IMG/VR virus record: IMGVR_UViG_3300047560_001754
Coordinates: 1 to 38,369 of that record
DNA: 38,369 nucleotides
Strand: one strand, 5' to 3'
Source: a virus
The position numbers and the translations under genes are program-made. Positions 8,469 through 38,369 of the stretch are shown here, piece by piece (the first letter of the stretch is position 1; the number at the start of each line of letters is the position of its first letter). The notes under the pieces are model-generated. The model was not told where the DNA came from. It saw nothing but the letters and a program-made list of their open reading frames with translations, and made no database searches.

Positions 8469-8681
8469 ATGAAGAATCATGATAAACGCGCACAAGAGCT
8501 GCTTGACTTGGTCATTGCAGCTTCTTGTGAAGCAAAGTACTTGCGCATTAAGCACGGTTTAAACGTCAAGGTCGAACAGGCATTGGACGACGCTGCCGGC
8601 TTATTGCGTGTTATGACTAACGACATCGAAAAAGAAGAACAATCACGACCTTCTGTGTTTAAAAAGTTAGGTTTACGCTAG
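8469..8681 (+). CDS. Small hypothetical helical protein
   Basis: I do not recognise this 70-residue protein. The start is the ATG at 8469 behind GTTAGGGGAGAATAT; an in-frame GTG-type start further up would place the promoter inside the gene. It is almost all helix with heptad-like leucines (AQELLDLVIAASCEAKYLRI, then VEQALDDAAGLLRVM) and a basic tail. Its TAG stop overlaps the GTG of the methyltransferase by one base, so the two are coupled. Confidence 0.65.
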   Translation: MKNHDKRAQELLDLVIAASCEAKYLRIKHGLNVKVEQALDDAAGLLRVMTNDIEKEEQSRPSVFKKLGLR

Positions 8682-9880
8682 TGCGTTACCTAAGCGTTTG
8701 CAGTGGCATTGAAGCCGCGAGTGTAGCATGGGAATCTCTTGGTTGGACTCCCGTAGCTTTCTCTGAAATTGAAAAGTTTCCATCTAAGGTGCTGGCACAT
8801 AGATTTCCAAACGTGCCAAATTTTGGTGACATGACGCGTTATAAGGAATGGGACATTGCAAGAGGTTCAATTGACCTTCTCGTTGGAGGAACACCCTGCC
8901 AAGCTTTTTCAGTCGCAGGATTGCGCAAAGGGCTTGACGATCCACGGGGAAATCTCGCACTCACCTTCATTGCAATGGTTGAACTTTTTAAACCCGAATG
9001 GGTCGTTTGGGAAAATGTCCCCGGTGTTTTGTCAAGCAACAGAGGACGGGATTTTGGTTCCTTCCTCGGCGCGTTGGGGAACATCGGGTATGGGTTCGCC
9101 TACCGAGTGCTTGACGCTCAGTACTTTGGAGTCCCCCAAAGACGTCGTAGAGTCTTTGTTGTCGCACATTCTTCAGGAGACTCAAGACGTGCAGCAGAAG
9201 TACTATTTGAGCCAGAAAGCTTGCATAGGAATTCTACGGAGGTCTTCAGAAAGAGGCAAGAGGTTGCCGGCAAAGTTACAGCAAGCATTGCAAGCTGTAG
9301 CTCAGCCAAAAGATTGTCAGTAAATACATTGACAACAAATGACATACACACGACTGGAATCGATGTAAAGTTATTCGTTATGGCTGACGGACAAAGTAAC
9401 GCAGCAATATCAACAAATGGTATTGCACCGACTTTAAATAGCAGTATGGAGAATCCAATAGTTGCTTTTGTATTAGATACGCCTAAAAAAAGTCACTGCC
9501 TTTTGGCCGGTGGTGGACAGCGATATGACCCAGAGTTTGAAACGCTTATCCCAGTAGCCCATGCTTTTAAGATACGAGGCGTTGGGCATTACACCGGTGC
9601 AAACGGCGGGGTAGCAAAACCTGGAACAGGTGGTAGTGGTTACATGGGTCAGGATGAAAAAGCCTACACGATTGCTACAACACAAGACCAACAAATAATG
9701 CATGGAATGGCTGTTCGCAGACTTACACCTACTGAGTGTGAACGGCTACAAGGATTTCCAGACGGATGGACAAACATTCAAACGGATACACCTGATGGCC
9801 CTAGATACAAAGCATTGGGCAATTCTATGGCTGTACCAGTTATGCATTGGATTGGAAAAAGAATTAATGAACTTTGCTAA
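8681..9880 (+). CDS. DNA (cytosine-5) methyltransferase
   Basis: The 399-residue product shows the ordered motifs of C5-methyltransferases: motif I LSVCSGIEAASVAW (4-17), motif IV GGTPCQAFSVAG with catalytic C73, motif VI WENVPG (E111), motif VIII QRRRRVFVVA (153-162), a ~170-residue variable target-recognition region, and motifs IX/X ending in LTPTECERLQGFPDGW and ALGNSMAVPVMHWIG. It transfers a methyl group from SAM to carbon 5 of cytosine in a short target I cannot predict. No partner restriction enzyme is adjacent, so protection of phage DNA is the likeliest role. It starts with GTG overlapping the preceding TAG. Confidence 0.93.
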   Translation: MRYLSVCSGIEAASVAWESLGWTPVAFSEIEKFPSKVLAHRFPNVPNFGDMTRYKEWDIARGSIDLLVGGTPCQAFSVAGLRKGLDDPRGNLALTFIAMVELFKPEWVVWENVPGVLSSNRGRDFGSFLGALGNIGYGFAYRVLDAQYFGVPQRRRRVFVVAHSSGDSRRAAEVLFEPESLHRNSTEVFRKRQEVAGKVTASIASCSSAKRLSVNTLTTNDIHTTGIDVKLFVMADGQSNAAISTNGIAPTLNSSMENPIVAFVLDTPKKSHCLLAGGGQRYDPEFETLIPVAHAFKIRGVGHYTGANGGVAKPGTGGSGYMGQDEKAYTIATTQDQQIMHGMAVRRLTPTECERLQGFPDGWTNIQTDTPDGPRYKALGNSMAVPVMHWIGKRINELC

Positions 9881-13118: not shown

Positions 13119-13343
13119 ATGACAGATAAAACACCTCGTGTTCGCAGGGACTACTTGTGGGCACATAAAGAAATCCTTGCTGGTGGCAAGGTCATGCGCT
13201 TTGAAGCGCGTTGGTTTATTCAACTTGTTGATGGACGAATGTGCACATACAGGATTGACGGAGCATCCAACAGAGTATTTGCCGGTATCACAACATTGTC
13301 ATCAGCGGATCTCATGGCATTAGACTGGGTGTCATACGAATGA
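13119..13343 (+). CDS. Small DUF2829/Tad2-like protein, first copy
   Basis: This 74-residue protein has the pattern of the four small proteins encoded at 14406-15284: an N-terminal helix and basic turn (AHKEILAGGKVMRFEARW), a short beta-rich middle, and a C-terminal helix with acidic DW near the end (SSADLMALDWVSYE). The pattern resembles the DUF2829 family, which includes Tad2, a phage protein that binds the signal molecules of Thoeris defence. The resemblance is by eye and this is the most divergent member. It overlaps the next gene by 4 bases (ATGA). Confidence 0.5.
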   Translation: MTDKTPRVRRDYLWAHKEILAGGKVMRFEARWFIQLVDGRMCTYRIDGASNRVFAGITTLSSADLMALDWVSYE

Positions 13344-13720
13344 AAGTTAGACATATAGAATTGAAAGATGCTAACGAGTTTGTAGAAAAATATCATCGTC
13401 ATCATAAGCCCGTTACTGGACATAGATTCAGTATTGCTTGCGTTGTAGATGACATAGTACATGGTGTTGCTATTGTAGGAAGACCAGTAGCAAGATTAGT
13501 TGATGCAAGCACAACTCTTGAAATAACTAGACTTGTCACAGATGGTACACCGAATGCTTGTTCGTTTTTATACGGTGCATCAGCTAGGGCCGGTAAGGAG
13601 CTTGGTTACTCAAAAATACAAACGTACATATTAGAGTCAGAAACCGGCGTAACACTTAGAGCTTCTGGTTGGACTATGGTTGCGGTAACTCAAGGGGGGG
13701 TGGAAACGTTCCGATGGTAA
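13340..13720 (+). CDS. XF1762-type acetyltransferase-like protein, C-terminus lost by a G7 frameshift
   Basis: The 126-residue in-frame product matches the XF1762 family of phage/prophage GNAT-like proteins: YHRHHKPVTGHRFSIACV, VAIVGRPVARLVD, LEITRLVTDGTPNACSFLYG and LGYSKIQTYILESETGVTLRASGW. The family normally ends in a basic W...R.R...PT..K.RWE segment. Here that segment exists in the +1 frame: GGWKRSDGKPRRTDQPTERK then LRWEKVL, ending at a TGA at 13782-13784. The two frames meet at seven G (13694-13700). The full product would be ~147 residues and its stop would overlap the GTG start of the next gene (GTGA). Substrate unknown. Confidence 0.8.
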   Translation: MKVRHIELKDANEFVEKYHRHHKPVTGHRFSIACVVDDIVHGVAIVGRPVARLVDASTTLEITRLVTDGTPNACSFLYGASARAGKELGYSKIQTYILESETGVTLRASGWTMVAVTQGGVETFRW

Positions 13721-13780
13721 GCCACGCAGGACGGATCAACCCACAGAACGAAAACTGCGATGGGAAAAGGTTTTAGTAAA

Positions 13781-14152
13781 GTGAATGTATCAATAGAAGA
13801 CCTACAAGGCTTACCCAAAGACTGGGTCAACGAGATTGAGTGGGAAAACGACATCACCTTGATGGTGCGGTACGAAGTACTGAACATTGAAAAGATATCT
13901 AGCGACGTGCTTGACTTTATGAACAAGCACGGACGTGACGTAGCTTTTACCGGTTCTGTTGAGGGATGCGAGCACTTGCACGAAGCGTGCAAGATTGGGC
14001 TGACCTTGATTGAAGATGGTGAAAAGTACACGAATGAAGACTTTGCTTCATGGCTTGGCACACACCTCGAAGATGAAGTTAACTTCGGACTACATCAAGA
14101 CGCTGAACATCAGTACGAAGCAAAGCTAGATGGATCATGGTGGAGAGATTGA
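13781..14152 (+). CDS. Very acidic hypothetical protein
   Basis: I do not recognise this 123-residue protein. Asp and Glu make up about a quarter of it and basic residues about a tenth, with no clear motif (for example FASWLGTHLEDEVNFGLHQD). Charge and size recall DNA-mimic inhibitors, but so do many phage proteins, so this is only a thought. I prefer the GTG at 13781, which overlaps the TGA of the frame-shifted XF1762 reading and has AAAGG upstream; an ATG at 13760 would add seven residues and lacks a ribosome site. Confidence 0.65.
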   Translation: MNVSIEDLQGLPKDWVNEIEWENDITLMVRYEVLNIEKISSDVLDFMNKHGRDVAFTGSVEGCEHLHEACKIGLTLIEDGEKYTNEDFASWLGTHLEDEVNFGLHQDAEHQYEAKLDGSWWRD

Positions 14153-14406
14153 TGATAAACGCACGGTCTATATCGGCGATCAAAACTGCTACGCGTACAC
14201 CTACCAATAAACCTCGTAAACCTAAAGTGACAGATCAGGTTTGCATGGAAGTACAGCTGCGCATAATGGATATGTACAAGTCTGGCATCAGTATGCGACG
14301 CATTGGAGAGCAGTTATACGCTGAAGGTGTCCCACATCCAGACACAACTGTTCCTTGGAGCACGGAAGCAATCGCAGCCATCATCAAGGAGAGAAAGGCA
14401 GATTAA
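14152..14406 (+). CDS. Small HTH protein resembling a recombinase-domain fragment
   Basis: The 84-residue product has a basic N-terminus (TRTPTNKPRKPKVTD) and a helix-turn-helix-like half: RIMDMYKSGISMRRIGEQLY, then AEGVPHPDTTVPWSTEAIAA and a final IIKERK. The order of helix, G-x-P and W-S-x-x-x-I recalls the recombinase domain of large serine recombinases, but no catalytic domain is present. A DNA-binding regulator of this cassette is the likeliest role. The ATG at 14152 overlaps the previous TGA by one base and follows GGAGAG. Confidence 0.65.
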   Translation: MINARSISAIKTATRTPTNKPRKPKVTDQVCMEVQLRIMDMYKSGISMRRIGEQLYAEGVPHPDTTVPWSTEAIAAIIKERKAD

Positions 14407-14636
14407 TGACAGGAATTGAAGCCTTTATTGCATTGCGATGCCGAAAGAACATACGGCGTAAATCCTGGGATGAAAATCAGTTAGTCAAATGGACAGTCGT
14501 GAATGAAAATCAAATGAGTATGGAGATACTTAAAAATGATTATTCTCTTGAAGACAAGATTTACAGACACGCCAACTTATTTGCTAACTTGATGGGGGAC
14601 TTACTGGAATACGATGACTGGGAGATAGTCGAATGA
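14406..14636 (+). CDS. DUF2829/Tad2-like small protein, copy 2
   Basis: The 76-residue product begins MTGIEAFIALRCRKNIRRKS and ends LLEYDDWEIVE. The start (helix, then basic turn with R-R-x-W) and the end (D-W-E-I/V) are shared with the three genes that follow and agree with DUF2829, the family of the Thoeris inhibitor Tad2, which sequesters a cyclic ADP-ribose-type signal. The middle differs strongly between copies. The ATG overlaps the previous TAA; the gene overlaps its follower by 4 bases. The binding-pocket residues cannot be judged by eye. Confidence 0.65.
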   Translation: MTGIEAFIALRCRKNIRRKSWDENQLVKWTVVNENQMSMEILKNDYSLEDKIYRHANLFANLMGDLLEYDDWEIVE

Positions 14637-14860
14637 AGACGCGATTGACGCCTCGTAAAATATTGTCCATGATTGTGGCTGGTAAAACAATGCGTAGAAA
14701 ATGCTGGCCTGAAAGTTATCTCTATTGCATCCTCAGTGAAGAGACTGGAGAACTGATGGTGCGCAAGGAAGTGGAAGATTCAGTAGGTAACGTAGCCAAA
14801 ATTTGGGACAGGTTATGGGTAGAAGAATTATTCGAAAATGGATGGGAGGTCATTGAATGA
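14633..14860 (+). CDS. DUF2829/Tad2-like small protein, copy 3
   Basis: The 75-residue product has a different first part (MKTRLTPRKILSMIVAGKTM) but keeps the basic turn with R-R-K-C-W and the closing LWVEELFENGWEVIE. It is chained to both neighbours by ATGA overlaps, so all copies are probably translated from one message. The DW of the other copies is GW here. It belongs to the same family as copies 2, 4 and 5 by pattern. A cyclic-nucleotide-sponge role is inferred, not shown. Confidence 0.6.
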   Translation: MKTRLTPRKILSMIVAGKTMRRKCWPESYLYCILSEETGELMVRKEVEDSVGNVAKIWDRLWVEELFENGWEVIE

Positions 14861-15099
14861 CAGGAATTGAAGCACTGAAAGCATTAGCATCAGGGAAAAA
14901 GATTCGTCGTGAAGATTGGGGAGAAGATGAAGCAGTATGCCCTTATGAAACTGGTGAATACATCCCTCTTATAGCTCAAGCAACATATGCGCTAACCATG
15001 AATAGGTGGAAGAGAATTAATGAGCCACTTGACTTTGATGTAGAACTACAACGCATCTATACAGATTTTCTTATGGATGATTGGGAAGTAGTCGAATGA
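14857..15099 (+). CDS. DUF2829/Tad2-like small protein, copy 4
   Basis: This 80-residue copy is closest to the family pattern: MTGIEALKALASGKKIRRED then WGEDEAVCPYETGEYIPLI, a central segment YALTMNRWKRINEP as in DUF2829 proteins, and IYTDFLMDDWEVVE at the end. It shares the MTGIEA start with copy 2 and MTG-EAL with copy 5. The start overlaps the previous stop by 4 bases. It is the best single candidate for testing a Tad2-like function. Confidence 0.7.
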   Translation: MTGIEALKALASGKKIRREDWGEDEAVCPYETGEYIPLIAQATYALTMNRWKRINEPLDFDVELQRIYTDFLMDDWEVVE

Positions 15100-15284
15100 C
15101 AGGATCCGAAGCTTTGATAATGATGAAGCGCGGATTACTCATGCGCCGAACTAGATGGCTCCAGGATGTGTATGCTGTAGTCAAGGACAATGACATAGTC
15201 ATGCTGCGGGATACAGCAAGTAAACCTCAGTACACAATGGCGATATCAGACTTACTCCACGATGACTGGGAAGTATATTTATGA
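15096..15284 (+). CDS. DUF2829/Tad2-like small protein, copy 5
   Basis: The 62-residue product is the shortest copy: MTGSEALIMMKRGLLMRRTRW, a beta-rich middle (VYAVVKDNDIVMLRD) and TMAISDLLHDDWEVYL. The ATG at 15096 overlaps the stop of copy 4; an upstream reading from 15081 is only the tail of that gene in another frame. It overlaps the next gene by 4 bases. The truncated middle may mean a smaller or altered ligand pocket. Confidence 0.65.
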   Translation: MTGSEALIMMKRGLLMRRTRWLQDVYAVVKDNDIVMLRDTASKPQYTMAISDLLHDDWEVYL

Positions 15285-15514
15285 TTAGTATAATCACCGG
15301 CATACTCATAGGAGTAGGGATGTGCTACGTAGGTACATTGATTGCCGACATCATAAAGACTCGCAGGTTCATGAAATGGCTACGCAATCGAGGTCTTGAT
15401 CCGTACGCGTTAGACAACGACAGTATTCGAGCAGCTCGCATTGCATACATAATGGAAAATGTACCAAACGTCAGCATAGAAGTTAGCCATAACAAAGAAA
15501 TTGATATAGAATAA
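15281..15514 (+). CDS. Small membrane protein
   Basis: The 77-residue protein has one N-terminal membrane segment (ISIITGILIGVGMCYVGTLI) followed by a basic turn (KTRRFMKWLRNRG) and an acidic, probably cytoplasmic tail. I do not recognise it. It ends the accessory operon, coupled to the last Tad2-like gene by an ATGA overlap. A holin is possible by size, but only one clear membrane segment is seen and the lysin lies 7 kb away. Confidence 0.65.
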   Translation: MISIITGILIGVGMCYVGTLIADIIKTRRFMKWLRNRGLDPYALDNDSIRAARIAYIMENVPNVSIEVSHNKEIDIE

Positions 15515-16076: not shown

Positions 16077-17387
16077 TTACGTGGCATCACGAAAATGGTT
16101 ACTCTCCAAAGCGTGTTTTATTCGTGCTTCCGCGATCTTATAGTACTGCTCATCCATTTCACAGCCAATAAACTGAAGGCCATCGAGCATAGCAGCTTTA
16201 CCAGTAGTGCCGGAACCCATGAAAGGATCCAGTACTGTGCCTCCAGGCTGTGTTACGAGGCGACATAAGTAACGCATGAGATCTGTAGGTTTCACCGTAG
16301 GGTGGATGTTCTTTACTTTCTGTAACTCTACATGGGTGATACCAGCCGCACGCTCGGCTGCATTACCTACACGCGTATTGGACTTACCGTTGTTGTGCGT
16401 ACCAGTACCTCGGTTGTAGTCTTCCTCAAAGTCATCTAGGCCTTCATTACGATCGGCCTTGTTAGCCTTAGCACAGTAAAAATAGCGTGCAGCGGATCCA
16501 CCTAAATCATCGTGCCCGGTACGAGCATGAGGCTGTTTACCATTTAGGTGTTGAGTATCTTTGTTGTAACTCATCCCTCCAGATCTACTAGGTTGTGTAT
16601 CAGGGAATAGGTCAAGTACTGCTTGGGATCCATCATGGATGAAATTAGCTGGCCATCTACCTAGTGGGTTAGCGGGGTTAGCACCAGACAAGTCACTACT
16701 ATTCTTCCAGCTGTTATCCATGACACCGCCACGCTGGCGTATCTGATCCACACCCTTAGATAACTGCTCGTAATCAGCGGCATCCATAGGTACACGGCAA
16801 GCATCTATGTTCATACCACCTGTACCGTACTCCAATACATTATTGGCTACAGTGCCTACCAATGGTTTACGAGCTACCGTTATTGGCTCCAGTGAAGGTT
16901 TCAAAGCTGTACCCCAGCCTTCCCACTTCTTGGCATCATCTGACTTAGCCTCATATGGCGGGACAGGATTACTAGTAAGCTTATTTTCCTGCTCTACATC
17001 AGACGCCTGGTAACTACTAGCAGTAGGAATAGCCTTACCCCTATTCCCATGACCATGTAACTTATCAATCGAGACAGACACATTATGGGACTTAGGAAAA
17101 CCACTACCATATACCCAAGCGATCATGTCCCTTATCTCAAAGCCAGCATCCTCAATATTCACAGCCATACGATGCTGCGTTCGAGTACCAGCGAAAGCTA
17201 ACAAATAACCACCAGGCTTCAATACCCGGTAACACTCTCTCCATATATCAACAGAAGGAACATCATAGTCCCACTTCTTACCCATGAAACTCAAACCATA
17301 CGGAGGATCACACACAACACTATCTACACTACTATCCTCCAATAAACCCATACTAACCAAACAATCCCCTAACAATAACCTATACAT
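16077..17387 (-). CDS. Beta-class DNA methyltransferase (N4-cytosine or N6-adenine)
   Basis: The 436-residue product has the catalytic motif CDPPYGLSF (DPPY at 27-30) near the start and the SAM-binding block HPTVKPTDLMRYLCRLV, VLDPFMGSGTTGKAAM near the end, the beta-class order. A ~230-residue insert between them with motifs such as GTGGMNIDACRVP and LGRWPANFIHDGS is usual in phage members of this type. It methylates an exocyclic amine in a target I cannot predict. The ATG at 17387 follows GGGGAATATGT. There is no adjacent restriction enzyme. Two inverted repeats upstream suggest regulated expression. Confidence 0.92.
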   Translation of the reverse strand: MYRLLLGDCLVSMGLLEDSSVDSVVCDPPYGLSFMGKKWDYDVPSVDIWRECYRVLKPGGYLLAFAGTRTQHRMAVNIEDAGFEIRDMIAWVYGSGFPKSHNVSVSIDKLHGHGNRGKAIPTASSYQASDVEQENKLTSNPVPPYEAKSDDAKKWEGWGTALKPSLEPITVARKPLVGTVANNVLEYGTGGMNIDACRVPMDAADYEQLSKGVDQIRQRGGVMDNSWKNSSDLSGANPANPLGRWPANFIHDGSQAVLDLFPDTQPSRSGGMSYNKDTQHLNGKQPHARTGHDDLGGSAARYFYCAKANKADRNEGLDDFEEDYNRGTGTHNNGKSNTRVGNAAERAAGITHVELQKVKNIHPTVKPTDLMRYLCRLVTQPGGTVLDPFMGSGTTGKAAMLDGLQFIGCEMDEQYYKIAEARIKHALESNHFRDAT

Positions 17388-17399
17388 ACATATTCCCCA

Positions 17400-17417
17400 T
17401 TGACACAATAACGTCAA
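17400..17417. promoter_or_regulatory. Inverted repeat TTGAC-N8-GTCAA before the methyltransferase gene
   Basis: The repeat lies 13 bases before the start codon and just upstream of its ribosome site. It is operator-like in size and position; a control protein has not been identified. Confidence 0.4.
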
Positions 17418-20890: not shown

Positions 20891-21379
20891 CTATTGCTGC
20901 ATCCAGGTCTCCGCGTGCTCGCAGTGCGCAAAGACTCGCGCCCATTCATTGGGAGTGCATCTGGCAAGCAGTGTAATACCTCGCTCGCGACGATCTGCTA
21001 CAGGTGCATCAGCTTCCATCTCCTCCGGAAGAATATGCCAATCATCGGCAGCCATGTCCGTGATACCGATGTGCTTTTCTTCCAGCTCACTGCTGTCGTC
21101 TTCACTACCCATTGTGATAAGGCGGCCGCGATCAAAGTACATGTACATCGGTGCACGACCAAAGGGAATTGCGGAGTATCGCACCAGGATGGATCCTGAC
21201 CACATCTTGCTCATTCCGCTAAAGAATGACTCCGTACCCGCATTCTGAAGCAATGCCTTGAGCTTCTCTGCGTACGTCACAGGTTCCGGGTCACGATGTG
21301 GCTGGAATAACATACATTCCATGCATGTCCCGTTGTATAGCTGCACTGCTGGAATTCCGCACTTTGGACACTTTTCCAT
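20891..21379 (-). CDS. Zinc-ribbon protein of unknown function
   Basis: The 162-residue product opens with MEKCPKCGIPAVQLYNGTCMECM, a four-cysteine zinc ribbon. A soluble domain follows with MSKMWSGSILVRYSAIPFGR and an acidic stretch (GSEDDSSELEEKH). I do not recognise the rest. The ATG at 21379 follows AGAGGTTATTGAC; an upstream frame start at 21484 has no ribosome site. It is the last gene before the early terminator and is flanked by matching CGTC repeats. Confidence 0.65.
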   Translation of the reverse strand: MEKCPKCGIPAVQLYNGTCMECMLFQPHRDPEPVTYAEKLKALLQNAGTESFFSGMSKMWSGSILVRYSAIPFGRAPMYMYFDRGRLITMGSEDDSSELEEKHIGITDMAADDWHILPEEMEADAPVADRRERGITLLARCTPNEWARVFAHCEHAETWMQQ

Positions 21380-21491
21380 GTCAATAACCTCTTTTGCGTC
21401 AACAAGTGTGACTGCTTTTACTTTTCTTGTGTAAAGTGGACGTACACGATTTGTGCTCGATATTAGGATATGAGCGTCCCTCACATTGTAT

Positions 21492-26759: not shown

Positions 26760-26821
26760 CTGCTACTTAATTTCCCCAAAGTCCAGTAGTGAACCCCGTC
26801 ACCCCTAAGACGGGGTTTTTT
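26760..26821 (+). ncRNA. Candidate 60-base small RNA opposite to the early genes
   Basis: Between the plus-strand promoter at 26726-26755 and the T6 terminator at 26792-26821 lies a short transcript with an unpaired TAATTTCCCC. Ten bases of this are fully complementary to GGGGAAATTA, the ribosome site and the A of the start codon of the replication initiator gene at 24314. Translational control of early genes is an inference. Confidence 0.35.
26792..26821 (+). terminator. Rho-independent terminator, plus strand
   Basis: A 9-bp stem AACCCCGTC/GACGGGGTT with an 8-base loop is followed by TTTT. Read on the minus strand the same hairpin follows the fibre gene but lacks a T-tract, so it is mainly a rightward terminator. 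Confidence 0.8.
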
Positions 26822-29774
26822 ATGTCAAGACTACTTCCCACGTAACTCCTAAGTCTGTCGAGCGACAAACCTTCTTCGTTCCGCCGATGTCAAAGATTGC
26901 ATACAACATTCCACCAAGGTGTGGATCGTAGCTCGTGTCTAGTACTTGCCCGACCTGCGGCGTCACGCTGTTGATTGTGCAGTTGGCGGCAGTAGTCCAC
27001 GTCGTCCCTTGATCTCGGCTTATCCTGTACTTTATGTTGCCTGGTGCTGCCGTAGTGCCATCATCATAAATAATGATGAGGAGACCACGGTTTGTGTCGC
27101 ACTCAAATCCAGCTGTGCCAGCAGTCACGGTGAGATAGTCTCCTTTGGTTGCGCCATTATCTGTTGTGTAACTTAGAGTAAACGTCGTCGTGTTTTTAAT
27201 CAGGATAAAGATATAGTCACCGACGTTTTCTGAATCGCGTAATTTTACGATGTTGCCTGAAGTTAAAACAGTGCCCGGCAATCTGTCAGTTAATGGGTTA
27301 TCTTGCCAACGTACGTTTATCTTCGTGGCTTTACCCAGCATCAAGAATCCCTTGTTTTTAAATGCCTCGATTGCAGAATATATTTCCTGCAAAACGTCAC
27401 GGAACCACGATCTATGGCGATGACTAGTATGTAACGGCGTCAGGTTCACGCTTTTCGTTAGATAGTCAACGTGATGGTTTGATTCTCCAAGCCCCCACGG
27501 TGTACCAGTAAAGTATCTACCCTCCGCATCTATTGTGGAGTCTGAACCACGGTTTGAGGCTCCACTAGTTAGAATAAGGTCAACCGTACCAGTCGATACG
27601 ATGTCACCCGCAGTGTCGAGTAATCCACCATGAGCAATACCGCGCAGTAGCGAAACGCCTCCAAGATACAAAGCACTATCTGTACCGCCGTTTATGTCGA
27701 ATGGGTCATATAGGTCTGGCGGAAAGTTGCCGTTTATTTTGTCAAACAAGGTCTGCGCTGTAATATTGCCGGTGACTTTGTGAGCATAGGTAAAGTCAGT
27801 ACCTGAAGTTGCATTCGGTGTAAGTAATGCGCCGCCGCCATACAGCCATGTAGCAAGCCCTGTATCACCGTTTAGGTAGCAATCACGCAGTGGTGGTTGT
27901 GATGCTGCACAGGTTCCACCACCAGGTTGTGCTACTGATCGCGTCATACTCCAACCAGGATGTCTTACAACGCTGTCGTCACTAGCATTGACCTCAGACG
28001 CCATCTGCGCAATGGTCAGCATTGTAACTGCATACGATGTTACACCTGTAGATCCACCAACAGTCATCTGCCAGTGGACGTCGGACTCTTCTTCGTTTCG
28101 TCCATCACGATCCTGTTGCCATAAACGACGGCCATAGAAGTAAGTAGTCGTGCCAGCTTCAGCAACTATCTGTGCCGTTTTGCGCTCGATAGCAGATGTA
28201 ACTGTATCTGGAACATATGTTGAATCCGTGTTTTTGTACTTAAGTGTGGTTGTGCCAATGTCGATGGCTCCGCTAGACACCCGTAACCTGCGGCATGAGG
28301 TAACTCCCCAATACGCACTATCAACGCTCTCAGAACCCGCAAAAGACGTGCTGGTCGTATTCTTACGAGGATAAGGATTATCTTTTGAATCTTTGTCTGG
28401 CATACTGCCAATTGAGTACGAATCGGGCGAACACAAGTCGAGCGTCACCGTTGCATAACTTGTTGTGGCGGCAGTAACATTCCAAGTCTTTGTGTTGTTA
28501 TGGAAATCGTGAAGTGTTATCTCGCCGGCAACACTTGTGCCTGACTGAGCTTTAACTTGTATGTCAAGGTAGCGGTAGCCAGACATACCCTCGTATGGCG
28601 TGTACGTCCTGTCGTTACCTGTACCAGAAATGGAACGGTTGTTAGTCTCGGTTACCGACCATCCGTTGAATCTCCAACCACGGAACATAACACGCGTTGC
28701 ACCACTGCCGTTGTCATCCCCATTGGTTGTCAGCGAACTACCCGACAAAGCAGCTGATATCCAAGTAGGAACGTCATTCAAAGACGTTGTCAAGTTACCG
28801 CTACCAGCAACAGGATCTGTAAGCGTTGTATACGCGCTGTAGTCATTGAACGTGTCATTGCCTGACCAACTACCAGAAGACGCTGTTACGTTACGAGAAC
28901 TACCGTCATATCCGGTGATTGCGACTGTTACGCTGTCCGGATATACACCATCCCATGCACGTATACGCCCAAACATTCCAACGCTTCTTGCGAGGCATAC
29001 GGTAGTGCTAATAGTTCCGCTACCAGTACGGTAAATACCGAACGCGTCTGCATCTCCTTCGAGAGACAACGACCACTCGGTAGCATCTTGCATACCTTTG
29101 TTTTGCGCATGTGTTATATCTGGAACGGTTGTGCCATTGACCTTAACATTGGTAACGCCAAAGTCATGCGTTTGTGGGCCAGTACAGAAACCTGTAGCAC
29201 TTAGTGTGGCTTTGTAGTTTGCTGTCTGACGTGTAGTAGAAACAGTACTAGTCGCAGTAACCGTTGACCCGCCAACCGAAAGGCTACATGTAGCTGTACT
29301 TCCTACCGTGCTTTTCTCGTACCAAGTATATGAAGTCTCTGCTGGGAATCTGGTTGGTGCAGATGTTGTACTGAAACCTACTTCAGCAATATCCCACAAC
29401 TTATCCGTACCAACACTTGCAGAAAATGCACCAGCAAACGTGGCCGATGCATCCACGTAATATAAAGTTGATGTGCCGGTGGCAACCGTAATAGTACTTG
29501 TTTGCGTAGCACCATGACCATTATTTACCGTAACGGCAGCACGTAATTCCCATCCCCATGTTGTCGTGTTTATGCCATAAACATACGTGCTTATGGTCAT
29601 AGTTCCAGAAAAACCTAAATGACCACTAAATGTAAACTCAGTACGCTTATCAAAGTATTGGTTGTCCCATGTTGGTGGGGCAATAATGCCGATTGGGTTG
29701 ACTAAAGTAACGGTCACACCTTGCGTGTGATCCATTGTTAGCGTTGATGTACGCGTACCGTCAATGTACGGCAT
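26820..29774 (-). CDS. Large tail fibre/receptor-binding protein with Asp-box repeats
   Basis: The 984-residue product is Thr/Ser/Gly-rich and beta-structured, as tail fibres are. The last ~100 residues contain two sialidase-type Asp-boxes, SRDQGTTW and STDLGVTW, typical of beta-propeller or BNR-like folds. Earlier parts hold many similar beta segments but no enzyme motif I recognise. It is the last gene of the tail operon, the usual place of receptor-binding proteins, and starts on the stop of the preceding gene. The Asp-boxes do not by themselves show sialidase activity. Confidence 0.7.
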   Translation of the reverse strand: MPYIDGTRTSTLTMDHTQGVTVTLVNPIGIIAPPTWDNQYFDKRTEFTFSGHLGFSGTMTISTYVYGINTTTWGWELRAAVTVNNGHGATQTSTITVATGTSTLYYVDASATFAGAFSASVGTDKLWDIAEVGFSTTSAPTRFPAETSYTWYEKSTVGSTATCSLSVGGSTVTATSTVSTTRQTANYKATLSATGFCTGPQTHDFGVTNVKVNGTTVPDITHAQNKGMQDATEWSLSLEGDADAFGIYRTGSGTISTTVCLARSVGMFGRIRAWDGVYPDSVTVAITGYDGSSRNVTASSGSWSGNDTFNDYSAYTTLTDPVAGSGNLTTSLNDVPTWISAALSGSSLTTNGDDNGSGATRVMFRGWRFNGWSVTETNNRSISGTGNDRTYTPYEGMSGYRYLDIQVKAQSGTSVAGEITLHDFHNNTKTWNVTAATTSYATVTLDLCSPDSYSIGSMPDKDSKDNPYPRKNTTSTSFAGSESVDSAYWGVTSCRRLRVSSGAIDIGTTTLKYKNTDSTYVPDTVTSAIERKTAQIVAEAGTTTYFYGRRLWQQDRDGRNEEESDVHWQMTVGGSTGVTSYAVTMLTIAQMASEVNASDDSVVRHPGWSMTRSVAQPGGGTCAASQPPLRDCYLNGDTGLATWLYGGGALLTPNATSGTDFTYAHKVTGNITAQTLFDKINGNFPPDLYDPFDINGGTDSALYLGGVSLLRGIAHGGLLDTAGDIVSTGTVDLILTSGASNRGSDSTIDAEGRYFTGTPWGLGESNHHVDYLTKSVNLTPLHTSHRHRSWFRDVLQEIYSAIEAFKNKGFLMLGKATKINVRWQDNPLTDRLPGTVLTSGNIVKLRDSENVGDYIFILIKNTTTFTLSYTTDNGATKGDYLTVTAGTAGFECDTNRGLLIIIYDDGTTAAPGNIKYRISRDQGTTWTTAANCTINSVTPQVGQVLDTSYDPHLGGMLYAIFDIGGTKKVCRSTDLGVTWEVVLT

Positions 29775-30022
29775 TAGGGTCTAGGTACGTCCGGGCCACC
29801 CGTGTATGAGTAACCATCCAAGATGTAAAAGTTTCCGCTTGCATCTTGTTGTACAAAATTCCAGTTAGGAGTGACGTACACAGGAAGCTCATGAAATGTC
29901 GCTACGTTGGCATTTAATTCACGCTCTGAGTTGAATCCAACCGTGCCATTAATCTGCCCCGTCAAGAACGACTGACGTTGCGCAGCTTGTTGCTGCATAT
30001 CTATCTGTGCTCGAATGTTCAT
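29774..30022 (-). CDS. Small tail-operon protein
   Basis: The 82-residue protein has a Gln-rich helical start (AQIDMQQQAAQRQSFLTGQI) and a short beta-like end (NFYILDGYSYTGGPDV). Its one-base overlaps with both neighbours show tight coupling with the fibre gene and the upstream 789-residue protein. It may be a connector or assembly protein for the tail tip; no family is recognised. Confidence 0.6.
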   Translation of the reverse strand: MNIRAQIDMQQQAAQRQSFLTGQINGTVGFNSERELNANVATFHELPVYVTPNWNFVQQDASGNFYILDGYSYTGGPDVPRP

Positions 30023-32391
30023 TAATACACCGTACTCACATAGTTTGATTCACAGCTATATTCAACCTTTGGTGCAACGATACCACCACTGTCACGGCTG
30101 ATAATGACCGTGCGACGCTTCATATAGAGGTCATCGTAGTCTGTATCAACACCATTGACCATGAGCATACGGCAACGAGCACCAGGTTGAAAACCATCGA
30201 CATAGTAGAAGGAACATACCTTTAGTTGGAAACGACGTTGTGCCGCTGCATCATACACACGCCTTGACATCTTTAGAATGTCAGATGGCTCAAGGTAGGG
30301 AACAAAGATAGGCATTGATGTAATGATGCGTCCGAGATAGTCAGGACTACTAGCATTAAAGATACTGTCTCGGTTAATCAGAGGATGTGCAGCAGGTACG
30401 CGAGCTGCATCATTCTGTGCGGTAGTAGTACCAACCCCATTGATGTAGTTTGTTTCCGGTGGCTGTACGTTTATTGAGTACACCTTTGGTGACTCTCCTA
30501 CGCATATCTTATTCGTTGCTATGTTGTGGTCAGCAGGATTCGGTACGAACTTCCAAATGGTAGCGGCATTGTGTGCTGGCTTTTGTTCTAACACCCATTT
30601 GTAGTTGACCTGATCCCAGCGCAATCGGTATTCAATAAACTGCTTACGCAACAGCATAAGTAACTGACGGATAATCTTGTCTCCACGATCACCAGTCTTT
30701 GTACCGTGACGCCAGCTCTGACCACGAGGTGGCACAGGAACCGTTGTATTGACTGCATCTGCTGGAAGGTCTACCGTTGGGATAGGGTCATAACCAGCCG
30801 CATTCAACACGTTATTGATTGCACTGCCAACAGTATTTCCATCAAAAGCCGTGTGTAGGTATTGGTTGATTTCGTTGAACCTACCAATTTCACTTGTGAG
30901 TTCCCAGTCTGCTTCATAACGATATGCAAAGCTGTTTGTGCCGGCATTATCAAGGTACACATCACAAGAACCTAAACGCGCCCATCCTGTCTGTTGCACA
31001 ACCCATGTAGGTGATGCAACCGTAGGGTCATCTGTGCGCTCAATCTTGTAAGTAGTGTCACCGCGCTCTACAATGGCAATCTCAGCCTGTGTTGTATGCG
31101 TCGCACGTAACCGGCCACCACCATATGCCAAGTCATCGTCAAAGAACTCTAGGTGCGAATAACGGTCAATGAGAACTGGCGTTGTTGATCGCGTTACTCT
31201 AAGGTTGTCCCACCGCAAGTACACACCGTACAACATAGGAGTGTAAACAGCATTGGACGTAGACAGCATCACCTTGTGCCTAAAGAATCTATCTGTACCT
31301 ACGTCATATGTTCCGACATCTTGATCCACCAATGAAACACTAGCAGATGTAGATGCGTTTGTCTGATATGCGCCAACTACATGGCTTGCAGGTGATGTCG
31401 CAGGAATGTAACCAGGGTCATATATCTGCGTCAAGAATCGGTAACCGCTTCCACCTTCTGCTGTGACTGGATATCGAATGCGGTGTATAGCGTAATGGTA
31501 TGTGAGATTCAGAAAATCTGGATTGAAACCGATTTCGAGTTTTCCGGCATCAACTACATAAGGATTTCCACTTGCAGTACGCAATGGGACTTGCACGAGT
31601 TTTCCTGCAATAGACTTTGAATCTGCGGATGACTTAAAACTTTTTTGTACCGTTGACTTTGTAGTATGGTTCGTAATTAATACGCCCATCTGCGGAATCG
31701 GGATAATCGACAATGTCTGCCATTTACCCGTCATCTCCGTGATGGAACCAATATCAAACGTATCTACTAGTGTAGCTGTTGTATACACACCAGATACTGG
31801 ATCGTCGTACCAGTACACTGAGCACTTGCCTGTAAAGTCAATGTGAATGCCAAGTTTCTCAATGGCAATAAACAAACAGTTGCGATACTTGTTTGTCATC
31901 ACCTCGCGACTGGCAATCTTCCAGTTGATGACAAAACCTTCATCTCTGTATGTATTCGCACCTGTAGCGGTTTGCATTCCAATCCGAATAATGTCGTTTG
32001 CATAACCACTGGTTGTAACGTACTTCGGCACATGCACTGCTCCAGTAAGTGCCGGCATAAGTTTTGTCCCAAGAGTAGGTGTTTCAGATGCTAAAAACTT
32101 ACCGTTGAATGCTGGATCTCCACCATCACCATGCCACATTAATTCCCAATATGGCTCATCTCGTGTAATGACTGATTCGTCATACCAGTGTGTTGCAGTT
32201 GACCAATCCGCAGATAAGAAGCTTGGCTTTAACATCATCATGCCAGTGATGGGCTCTTGCCAAGTCTGCTCGTCATCGCTTGACTTGATGTACTGTGTGA
32301 TGTTTGTACCAAACGGCGACTGTGCAAAACCTGGACGTTGCGTCATTCGGTTCTCTACATCAAACGTTATGCGCCATTGTGGAATAGGCAT
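30022..32391 (-). CDS. Large tail-tip/baseplate protein
   Basis: The 789-residue product is Trp/Tyr-rich and beta-structured from its start (MPIPQWRITFDVENRMTQRP). It directly follows the tape measure gene and precedes the fibre. That is the position of distal tail, hub or tail-associated proteins. A lectin-like middle (e.g. GYANDIIRIGMQTATGANTY) and a C-terminal part reminiscent of hub proteins (GRIITSMPIFVPYLEPSDIL) are suggestive only. No enzymatic motif is visible. Confidence 0.65.
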   Translation of the reverse strand: MPIPQWRITFDVENRMTQRPGFAQSPFGTNITQYIKSSDDEQTWQEPITGMMMLKPSFLSADWSTATHWYDESVITRDEPYWELMWHGDGGDPAFNGKFLASETPTLGTKLMPALTGAVHVPKYVTTSGYANDIIRIGMQTATGANTYRDEGFVINWKIASREVMTNKYRNCLFIAIEKLGIHIDFTGKCSVYWYDDPVSGVYTTATLVDTFDIGSITEMTGKWQTLSIIPIPQMGVLITNHTTKSTVQKSFKSSADSKSIAGKLVQVPLRTASGNPYVVDAGKLEIGFNPDFLNLTYHYAIHRIRYPVTAEGGSGYRFLTQIYDPGYIPATSPASHVVGAYQTNASTSASVSLVDQDVGTYDVGTDRFFRHKVMLSTSNAVYTPMLYGVYLRWDNLRVTRSTTPVLIDRYSHLEFFDDDLAYGGGRLRATHTTQAEIAIVERGDTTYKIERTDDPTVASPTWVVQQTGWARLGSCDVYLDNAGTNSFAYRYEADWELTSEIGRFNEINQYLHTAFDGNTVGSAINNVLNAAGYDPIPTVDLPADAVNTTVPVPPRGQSWRHGTKTGDRGDKIIRQLLMLLRKQFIEYRLRWDQVNYKWVLEQKPAHNAATIWKFVPNPADHNIATNKICVGESPKVYSINVQPPETNYINGVGTTTAQNDAARVPAAHPLINRDSIFNASSPDYLGRIITSMPIFVPYLEPSDILKMSRRVYDAAAQRRFQLKVCSFYYVDGFQPGARCRMLMVNGVDTDYDDLYMKRRTVIISRDSGGIVAPKVEYSCESNYVSTVY

Positions 32392-36620: not shown

Positions 36621-38369
36621 TTATCCGCTACTTAACTGCACAAGGAAAGGCCCAAAGGTCGTTGTTGTCGTACCCATTGTACGCTCAACAATGATTCTAT
36701 ATGTACCTGCGGTTGTAACCCCCAAAGCAGTCCATGACTGGTTTGGAGTCCATCTGATTACACCACCGTCAGCATATGCAACTGTAGGTGTTACGTTATT
36801 GACTACAGCAGTACCAGCCTGGTTCCTTACACGCAGTACAAGTGTTGATCCATTGACAGATACGGCACCACCACTACTGTCAATCAAGACCATCTCCATA
36901 TTGGGGACGGTAGACAAGAACTGATTGACTTCTGTAATCAATCCTTCAGTAGCGTTTTGTTTGATAAGAAATGGCCCCTGACGTAGCTGAATGCGTGCCG
37001 TGTCTGCAACCGTAGAAACCTTAGCATCCAGATAGTCACCAAACGTACCAGCCGTTGCGTGGCTTACCTTAGGTTCATCCCATACAGCTTGAGGTAACGC
37101 TTGTACAAGTACTTCAGTAGAACCAACTAATGAGCGTGTCTCGTTTAGTACACCACCAAACTCTGTAGCCGTTATATAACTCGATGGGTCAGCACCCCAT
37201 ACGGCAGATGCCGTCTGCGCTGATGTCAAGCCACCAGAGGACAACTTAACTGTCATTACCGCACCGTTAGTACCGCTTGCACCACGTACAACAATAGTGA
37301 CATCGTCAGCACCAGCCGCAAGCGCAGCATCAGGCAAGTCAAGTCTGTAGACCCCCGGCATGTTGGTTGCGTCTACCTCAGCAAAGCCACCAGATATCCA
37401 AGCCTGTGCGATGGTACGGGCTACTAGAGGGATAGATACGCTTGCAGTGCGTGTGCGGTTGTAGCGGGCTGTGAGACCGCTTGTGGAGGCTGTAAGACCT
37501 GTAACACCGAGATAGAGTTCAATGGATTGTGATGTGCTTCCGGGAGCGATTGTGATTGTAGAAGCGTTGCGCTCGGTTGGGAAGTATGGGCTAATGCCTC
37601 CAACAGTTCTATATGTTATAGACCCTGCGTCCGGACTTACTCCAGTCCAGTTGATACCAAATAGGTCAGATGCTGGCGCACCCGTTGCATTTCCGAATCC
37701 AGTGTTTACAGAATTGGCTGTGCTACCAAATGGTTGAACGTTTAAAAGACCATATAAAAGTGACTCAAATAAATCAAATCCAAAGTTTCCAATAGTTGTA
37801 CTGCCAGTCCCAGCAGAAATATTTGTCCTTGCAGTTATTACACCGACAAATCGATTGTTACTTTCAATCGCACTATTTGATGTGGTGACGTATATGCCGT
37901 TATCGTTGTGTGCAAATATATTGTTTTTAACAACTGATGGAAAAGTGGCTGACCCAGTGTTATAAAACAAGCCACTTGCTCCTGTACCTGTAAAAGCTAT
38001 TGTGCAGTTTGTAACATTGACCTTTCCGATTATTCCGAAAGCATTACTTGTTGGGCCTACAAGTAATGTAGTTTTAACTTCTGATGAATCATTAACTCCA
38101 ACGATATTTGTGATTACAATTTGTTGATATCCACCAAAAAATGCGCATTGTGAAATCTGTAAATTTGCATTTGTACTGGCTGGAGCCGTTGCTCTCAGCA
38201 TGGCCGTTGATCCGCTTCTTGTCCCACAATGTGCAAAGATACACTTGTTAAAACTCGTGTTTGTGCAAGTAGTAAACGTTAATCCTGTAGCACTGCCCCC
38301 GTATTCAAAATATATGTTTTGAAAACTAAGGAAGTTTTTTGATGTCGCTGTAATCAGTGATGTGTAGAG
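36621..38369 (-). CDS. Beta-helix structural protein (N-terminus outside window)
   Basis: The frame is open from 36621 to the right edge, 582 codons. No start is visible; an internal ATG at 38201 is not the real one because similar sequence continues upstream to the edge (LTFTTCTNTSFNKCIFAHCG). Residues near the edge form repeats of the right-handed beta-helix type (ISQCAFFGGYQQIVITNIVG, VNVTNCTIAFTGTGASGLFY, VVKNNIFAHNDNGIYVTTSN). The second half is a series of Ig-like or carrier domains. It may be a head decoration, neck whisker or tailspike; placement before gp10 favours a neck or head part. Confidence 0.7.
   Translation of the reverse strand, partial: LYTSLITATSKNFLSFQNIYFEYGGSATGLTFTTCTNTSFNKCIFAHCGTRSGSTAMLRATAPASTNANLQISQCAFFGGYQQIVITNIVGVNDSSEVKTTLLVGPTSNAFGIIGKVNVTNCTIAFTGTGASGLFYNTGSATFPSVVKNNIFAHNDNGIYVTTSNSAIESNNRFVGVITARTNISAGTGSTTIGNFGFDLFESLLYGLLNVQPFGSTANSVNTGFGNATGAPASDLFGINWTGVSPDAGSITYRTVGGISPYFPTERNASTITIAPGSTSQSIELYLGVTGLTASTSGLTARYNRTRTASVSIPLVARTIAQAWISGGFAEVDATNMPGVYRLDLPDAALAAGADDVTIVVRGASGTNGAVMTVKLSSGGLTSAQTASAVWGADPSSYITATEFGGVLNETRSLVGSTEVLVQALPQAVWDEPKVSHATAGTFGDYLDAKVSTVADTARIQLRQGPFLIKQNATEGLITEVNQFLSTVPNMEMVLIDSSGGAVSVNGSTLVLRVRNQAGTAVVNNVTPTVAYADGGVIRWTPNQSWTALGVTTAGTYRIIVERTMGTTTTTFGPFLVQLSSG

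Follow-up and report, generated by a model that had tools for sequence, protein, structure and literature searches.

The tailed phage genome IMGVR_UViG_3300047560_001754 in IMG/VR (38,369 bases, with portal, terminase, head and endolysin genes; hereafter the window, meaning this whole stretch) carries at one locus five small open reading frames (ORFs), designated P0001 to P0005, that are Tad2-family proteins as judged by Pfam, profile or fold. At this locus, closely related phages differed in that whole genes had been replaced, inserted, lost or reordered, the breakpoints lying at gene ends, and the array members had been assembled from lineages that were already diverged. We consider it moderately probable that this is an exchangeable counter-defence locus, an operon of co-translated and strongly diverged Tad2-family proteins that are swapped between phages as single-gene cassettes. 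The fold is a known one and the kind of work is probably known as well; the new part is the genetic organization.

The assignment to DUF2829/Tad2 had been proposed in an earlier note on this DNA, and it was borne out by a curated profile search against PF11195 (Tad2-like, formerly DUF2829; Pfam cutoff of 25 bits), in which P0004 (28.2 bits) and P0005 (25.8 bits) scored above the cutoff. P0002 fell below it (19 bits; E = 0.002), and P0003 had no match to PF11195, its only match being to phrog_643 (E = 0.002). A profile of the array members matched P0003 at E = 2e-16, a value to be read knowing that P0003 is a seed of that profile; no close relative of P0003 was found, the best outside relative being 32% identical. 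P0001 had no direct match in Pfam. The P0001 family aligned with the array family over its length with 95.3% probability (hhalign), and two P0001 relatives matched PF11195 below the cutoff, namely, a protein with a fused helix-turn-helix (HTH) domain in contig L013 (E = 0.002) and a stand-alone protein in contig L061 (E = 2.2e-4). Upon shuffling of the same 3748 ORFs, the array profile gave zero matches.

The fold evidence comes from single-chain AlphaFold2 models of P0001 and P0004, in both of which the Tad2 fold (helix, strands, short helix, last strand) was found. The P0001 model was of high confidence (predicted local distance difference test score [pLDDT], 91.2) and resembled the Tad2 proteins of SPO1, Myroides, Spt and Hgm with VIA-align Z scores of 9.2 to 10.5 (root mean square deviation, 1.7 to 2.0), the next, unrelated structure scoring 5.7. 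The P0004 model was of moderate confidence (pLDDT, 76.9) and weak in the middle; all 12 of its best Foldseek matches were solved Tad2 chains, with VIA-align Z scores of 6.5 to 7.7 against solved Tad2 and of 3.9 for the next row. Because of these profile and fold matches, Tad2-family membership stands even for P0001, which Pfam missed. Comparison with AcrIIA7/HgmTad2 gave fold Z scores of 6.5 to 10.0 and no specific sequence match, and the best PDB sequence matches of P0004 were to Tad2 at an E of 0.14. A neck chain of phage 812 (PDB 8qkh) showed a Tad2-like arrangement (VIA-align Z, 5.7 with P0001 and 3.9 with P0004) and may be a structural relative of the Tad2 fold. Elsewhere in the window, residues 93 to 154 of a 197-amino-acid (aa) protein (20894-21484, minus strand; no Pfam match) weakly resembled the array profile (E of about 0.055), and this protein possibly holds a sixth, strongly decayed Tad2-like domain.

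All five ORFs were present with the starts given in the earlier note (13119, 14406, 14633, 14857 and 15096), and the chaining of the last four by 4-base overlaps was confirmed as three exact ATGA overlaps across P0002 to P0005 (14406-15284). The shared motifs that it had described held in part. The basic turn is there, with the spacing R-R-x-x-W instead of R-R-x-W (RRKSW, RRKCW, RREDW and RRTRW in P0002 to P0005; RFEARW in P0001), and the D-W-E ending was found in P0002, P0004 and P0005 and is missing from P0003 (NGWE) and P0001 (LDWV). P0001 lies 1.06 kb upstream of P0002 to P0005, in the same direction and not adjacent to them, with a Mom-like XF1762 gene, a gene of no recognized family and an HTH gene in between. 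The stop of the HTH gene and the start of P0002 overlap by 1 base, and P0005 overlaps the ORF that follows it (15281-15514) by 4 bases.

The exchange of single genes was most evident between the window and contig L016, in which the flanks were 91 to 96% identical and the array differed by whole cassettes. The match between them stopped at 13343 (the P0001 stop), L016 having a Tad2-like gene in place of the XF1762 gene, stopped again at 14409 (the P0002 start) and resumed exactly at 15096 (the P0005 ATG), with one other Tad2-like gene in L016 in place of P0002 to P0004. In L005, P0004 (90% identical DNA, 14856-15097) directly followed the HTH gene. Other pairs differed in the same manner: L026 and L028 by a single inserted Tad2-like gene between 94% and 93% identical flanks, L006 and L014 by one inserted and one swapped gene, and L006 and L008 by the opposite order of two cassettes. 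One gene (85% over 246 bases) was nearly all that L011 had in common with an unrelated 87-kb phage, L012. Inside the arrays, 57% of alignment ends lay within 20 bases of the end of a Tad2-like ORF, versus 17% of random positions, the ends not being independent of one another. For 105 of the 108 nonredundant members, the closest relative was in another contig, and the median identity within a contig was 32%; these two results led us to reject recent duplication in place as the origin of the array.

Junctions between cassettes were uniform, with a 4-base ATGA overlap at 50 of 59 nonredundant junctions and a Shine-Dalgarno-like site at 39 of the 59, and across lineages identity was higher at the gene ends (N-terminal segment, 41%; C-terminal segment, 53%) than in the middle (14%). 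Common gene ends of 10 to 30 bases may guide homologous exchange in such a way that translation coupling is retained. At the L026/L028 insertion, a 14-base match was present on both sides of the inserted gene, which fits the prediction of exchange through common gene ends.

The importance that the earlier note had attached to the different middles was supported by the finding that they were 58% identical inside lineages, versus the 14% between lineages, and by purifying selection in every lineage tested, with ratios of nonsynonymous to synonymous substitution rates (dN/dS) of 0.06 to 0.18 for orthologous pairs. Each lineage therefore seems to retain its own specific function, and change seems to arise by the exchange of genes. 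Similar dN/dS values (0.02 to 0.16) were obtained for the neighboring HTH gene and the gene at 13760-14152; the L016 version of the HTH protein is 99% identical (dN/dS, 0.02). Chance ORFs were ruled out by the profiles, shuffles, dN/dS and fold.

IMG/VR was scanned with single copies and with a DNA pattern of the tandem junction, and dozens of contigs were returned. With the array and P0001 profiles, Tad2-like ORFs were found in 47 contigs including the window, 29 of which had at least three copies (maximum, seven), counts that do not give prevalence because the contigs were retrieved by similarity. With PF11195 alone, there were eight matches in L012, six in L042, five each in L013 and L043, and four in L011. 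Array copy number was 2 to 5 among the phages sharing this locus. An assembly artefact as the source of the array is unlikely, since a second record has the same array (99.98% identity over 10.8 kb). The XF1762/Mom-like gene (13340-13720) encodes 126 aa in the window and 145 aa in the 99.98% identical record (L024/L035), the first 120 aa being identical; a single base that differs, probably close to the G-run at about 13693-13700, shifts the frame, and an assembly error may be the cause. Two Tad2-like domains were seen fused in 172-aa proteins (L033, 2650-3168; L037; L040) of phages that are not related to the window, the second domain with an intact WNGK, and a 291-aa protein of L012 (2692-3567) has two C-terminal Tad2-like domains and lies near six single-domain copies in tandem.

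P0001 is not merely a fifth copy; it is a distinct, conserved first gene. Its relatives comprised 25 members, all but one without a preceding Tad2-like gene, and P0001-type genes were unexchanged between close relatives. A long N-terminal extension was present in 10 of the 25, with HTH matches in those tested. A second type of HTH-Tad2 fusion (131 to 142 aa) was found inside arrays such as those of L011, L026 to L032 and L071 to L073. The window has its HTH as a separate gene immediately upstream of P0002. The locus thus looks like a conserved controlling part followed by an exchangeable part.

Solved Tad2-family members capture glycocyclic ADP-ribose (gcADPR), histidine-ADP-ribose (His-ADPR) or cyclic dinucleotides as tetramers (PMC12043709; PMC13299392), and PDB entry titles name gcADPR, His-ADPR, cyclic ADP-ribose (cADPR) or cGG as the molecules with which Tad2 relatives were solved. 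By analogy, the array copies probably bind different immune signals. The product of each cassette, like Tad2, would form an oligomer and hold a small molecule in its variable loops, this ligand probably being a nucleotide alarm signal of Thoeris, the cyclic oligonucleotide-based antiphage signaling system (CBASS) or a similar system; with each signal captured by a different cassette, the gene set would follow the defences of local hosts, and the HTH gene or an HTH-Tad2 fusion would control the operon. A bolder proposal, which we regard as doubtful, is that one Tad2 scaffold in many pocket types is exchanged gene by gene via common ends and that HTH-Tad2 fusions serve as signal-responsive switches, such that the phage both senses and absorbs alarm molecules.

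Several findings weigh against counter-defence by signal capture. The pocket was judged by the WNGK segment alone. This segment follows the conserved W in 13 of the 17 classical segments, including those of SPO1, Myroides, Spt and Hgm Tad2, and survives in just 2 of 70 array domains, both of them in a tandem-fused protein of other phages; the five window copies all lack it. With WNGK missing from nearly all array members, capture of gcADPR by the known contacts cannot be assumed, and because the loop between β1 and β2 lines the gcADPR pocket in Tad2 (PMC12043709), the pockets of array members are probably altered. An arms race and a fixed cellular role are equally compatible with strong purifying selection. 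The HTH fusions, and the presence of an HTH gene at the head of the array, point to regulation as the role of at least some of these Tad2-like domains.

The regulatory findings can be carried further, in that the Tad2-like domains might be mainly regulatory or assembly modules, with the HTH-Tad2 fusions and the HTH gene binding DNA, the small copies joining in mixed oligomers that tune phage expression and any ligand being a phage or host metabolite and not an immune signal. HTH domains were indeed fused to Tad2-like domains in many contigs (HTH_23/HTH_7 matches of up to 37 bits), P0001-type genes head nearly all arrays and carry the N-terminal extension in the 10 of 25 noted above, phrog_643 is labelled "transcriptional regulator" in PHROGs and a conserved N-terminal helix is common to most members. 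However, most array members, including all four in the window, have no HTH, and a set of regulators would not be expected to be exchanged one gene at a time between close phages, nor single ones to be passed on among unrelated phages. To our knowledge, the functionally studied members of the Tad2 fold all act as sponges or inhibitors, which also counts against a regulatory role, and we consider such a role, which is the main rival reading, unlikely.

A multispecific sponge in which the paralogues form hetero-oligomers with composite pockets would fit the chaining of four genes by start-stop overlaps, the conservation of N- and C-terminal segments across lineages that differ in the middle, and the position of Tad2 pockets, which form between protomers of the tetramer (PMC12043709). 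Members were nevertheless swapped individually, without covarying partners, which argues against obligate partners and leaves this arrangement distinctly improbable. Slightly less probable still is direct inhibition of host defence proteins, as by AcrIIA7 of the same family, each kind of middle being suited to its own protein target; AcrIIA7/HgmTad2 entries were among the matches, and high turnover and lineage-specific middles would also fit specificity for protein targets, yet AcrIIA7/HgmTad2 was itself solved with cADPR and cGG bound (entry titles), and ligand capture is for that reason the better-documented activity. That the copies are virion parts, such as small head or neck proteins, is very hard to credit, since the resemblance of the P0001 model to the phage 812 neck chain (VIA-align Z, 5.7) is far weaker than its Tad2 matches (Z, 9.2 to 10.5) and the variation in copy number is unlike that of structural genes, even if a head-morphogenesis gene borders the locus.

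The features of the locus are collected in Table 1.

Table 1. Coordinates of the array locus in the window
Feature	Positions	Strand	Remarks
P0001	13119..13343	+	74 aa; minimal protein of Tad2 fold; first gene of locus, conserved; fused to HTH in other phages
XF1762-family Mom-like DNA-modification protein	13340..13720	+	NF045478, E = 6e-51; phrog_1384, E = 4e-34; Tad2-like gene instead in L016
Conserved gene in operon	13760..14152	+	No family match; L005 homologue 66% identical
Stand-alone recombinase-type HTH DNA-binding protein	14137..14406	+	89 aa; PF07508, 22.6 bits (cutoff, 21.1)
P0002, Tad2-like cassette	14406..14636	+	76 aa; PF11195, 19 bits (below cutoff); phrog_643, E = 3.5e-6; L043 orthologue 60% identical
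P0003, most diverged Tad2-like cassette	14633..14860	+	75 aa; phrog_643, E = 0.002
P0004, Tad2-like cassette	14857..15099	+	80 aa; PF11195, 28.2 bits (above cutoff); AlphaFold2 model resembles Tad2
P0005, Tad2-like cassette	15096..15284	+	62 aa; PF11195, 25.8 bits (above cutoff); 97% identical in L016, after a different upstream neighbor
Probable membrane protein, hydrophobic N terminus	15281..15514	+	77 aa; conserved; closes locus; judged from sequence
Example of cassette junction	14622..14637	+	W-E-V/I codons form Shine-Dalgarno-like site before next ATG; ATG overlaps stop (ATGA)

Homologues of the ORF at 15281-15514 end the arrays in L005 and L026 to L028, and from its hydrophobic N terminus the product is probably anchored in the membrane. 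Promoter-like sites were not commoner than in shuffled sequence. The locus adjoins a head-morphogenesis gene, and two DNA methyltransferase genes (8681-9880 and 16077-17417; one of cytosine-C5 type, one of another type) flank the region; together with the Mom-like gene they suggest layered protection against restriction, and these neighbors speak in favor of the counter-defence reading. PADLOC gave matches to the two methyltransferases and none to the array proteins given to it. Three large genes on the minus strand (26820-29774, 30022-32391 and 36621-38201; 984, 789 and 526 aa) had no PHROGs match at an E of 0.01; they are probably virion genes, from a group of phages that has been little sampled.

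Upon searching of 50,697 phage records by tblastn with P0004, three other array proteins and two HTH-Tad2 fusions, no array relative was found; the sole matches were to two records of one phage and covered the HTH part alone. Nor were any found when 84,980 bacterial and archaeal genomes were scanned with the array junction pattern and with proteins, one of these queries being a self-composed consensus. The terminase points only vaguely to proteobacterial phages (best match, 42%, to an Acetobacter phage), and no host was assigned. A Myroides Tad2 query matched 404 places in 398 phage records, and most of the other named phages checked had one PF11195 match. Neither such arrays nor HTH-Tad2 fusions were found described in the literature, within limited coverage of subscription journals. 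The statement of the earlier note that it knew of no described phage array of this kind was nearly right; multiple DUF2829 copies, with one tandem pair, are on record for Staphylococcus phage SpaA1 (PMC3398947).

Phage sponges have so far mostly been studied singly, and the locus described here appears to be a fixed site at which one phage group maintains a varying set of genes for a single sponge-related fold. The dN/dS values and breakpoints suggest that counter-defence at this locus evolves by whole-gene swapping and not by rapid point mutation. If the copies bind different signals, they would provide dozens of natural Tad2 variants from which pocket specificity can be read, as well as pointers to new immune signals, and the HTH-Tad2 fusions make phage sensing of host alarm molecules directly testable.

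Among known systems, the closest are Tad2 of Bacillus phage SPO1 (gp34.65), MoTad2, SptTad2 and HgmTad2/AcrIIA7, which belong to the same family, with the same predicted fold, and are likewise small phage proteins among accessory genes. The best classical Tad2 copies in 12 named phages scored 76 to 92 bits against PF11195 and mostly contain R-x-G-W-N-G-K, whereas array members reached at most about 38 bits; unlike the SPO1 type, the array consists of several mutually unrelated copies in one operon and lacks WNGK. The sponges Acb4, Acb2 and Tad1 have the same proposed action, the capture of immune nucleotides, through unrelated folds (Acb4 is reported to have no structural homology to Tad2; PMC11722364), and no array has been described for them. 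Multiple copies are also found in phage SpaA1 (four DUF2829 matches, ORFs 60 and 61 being adjacent) and in Lactobacillus phage Lenus (two neighbors); these are pairs only, of mostly classical sequences, and the larger array, the gene exchange and the HTH fusion were not seen there. In acr-aca (anti-CRISPR and anti-CRISPR-associated) or anti-defence islands (PMC7648647), as here, small counter-defence genes are exchangeable, an HTH gene lies in the operon and DNA-modification genes are neighbors. A small HTH gene, as expected of an acr-aca operon, was present in the same operon in the window (14137-14406), and no known aca family was identified at the array locus. Unlike in those islands, the cassettes exchanged here are all of one fold, the conserved first member is itself Tad2-like and the HTH gene leads the array.

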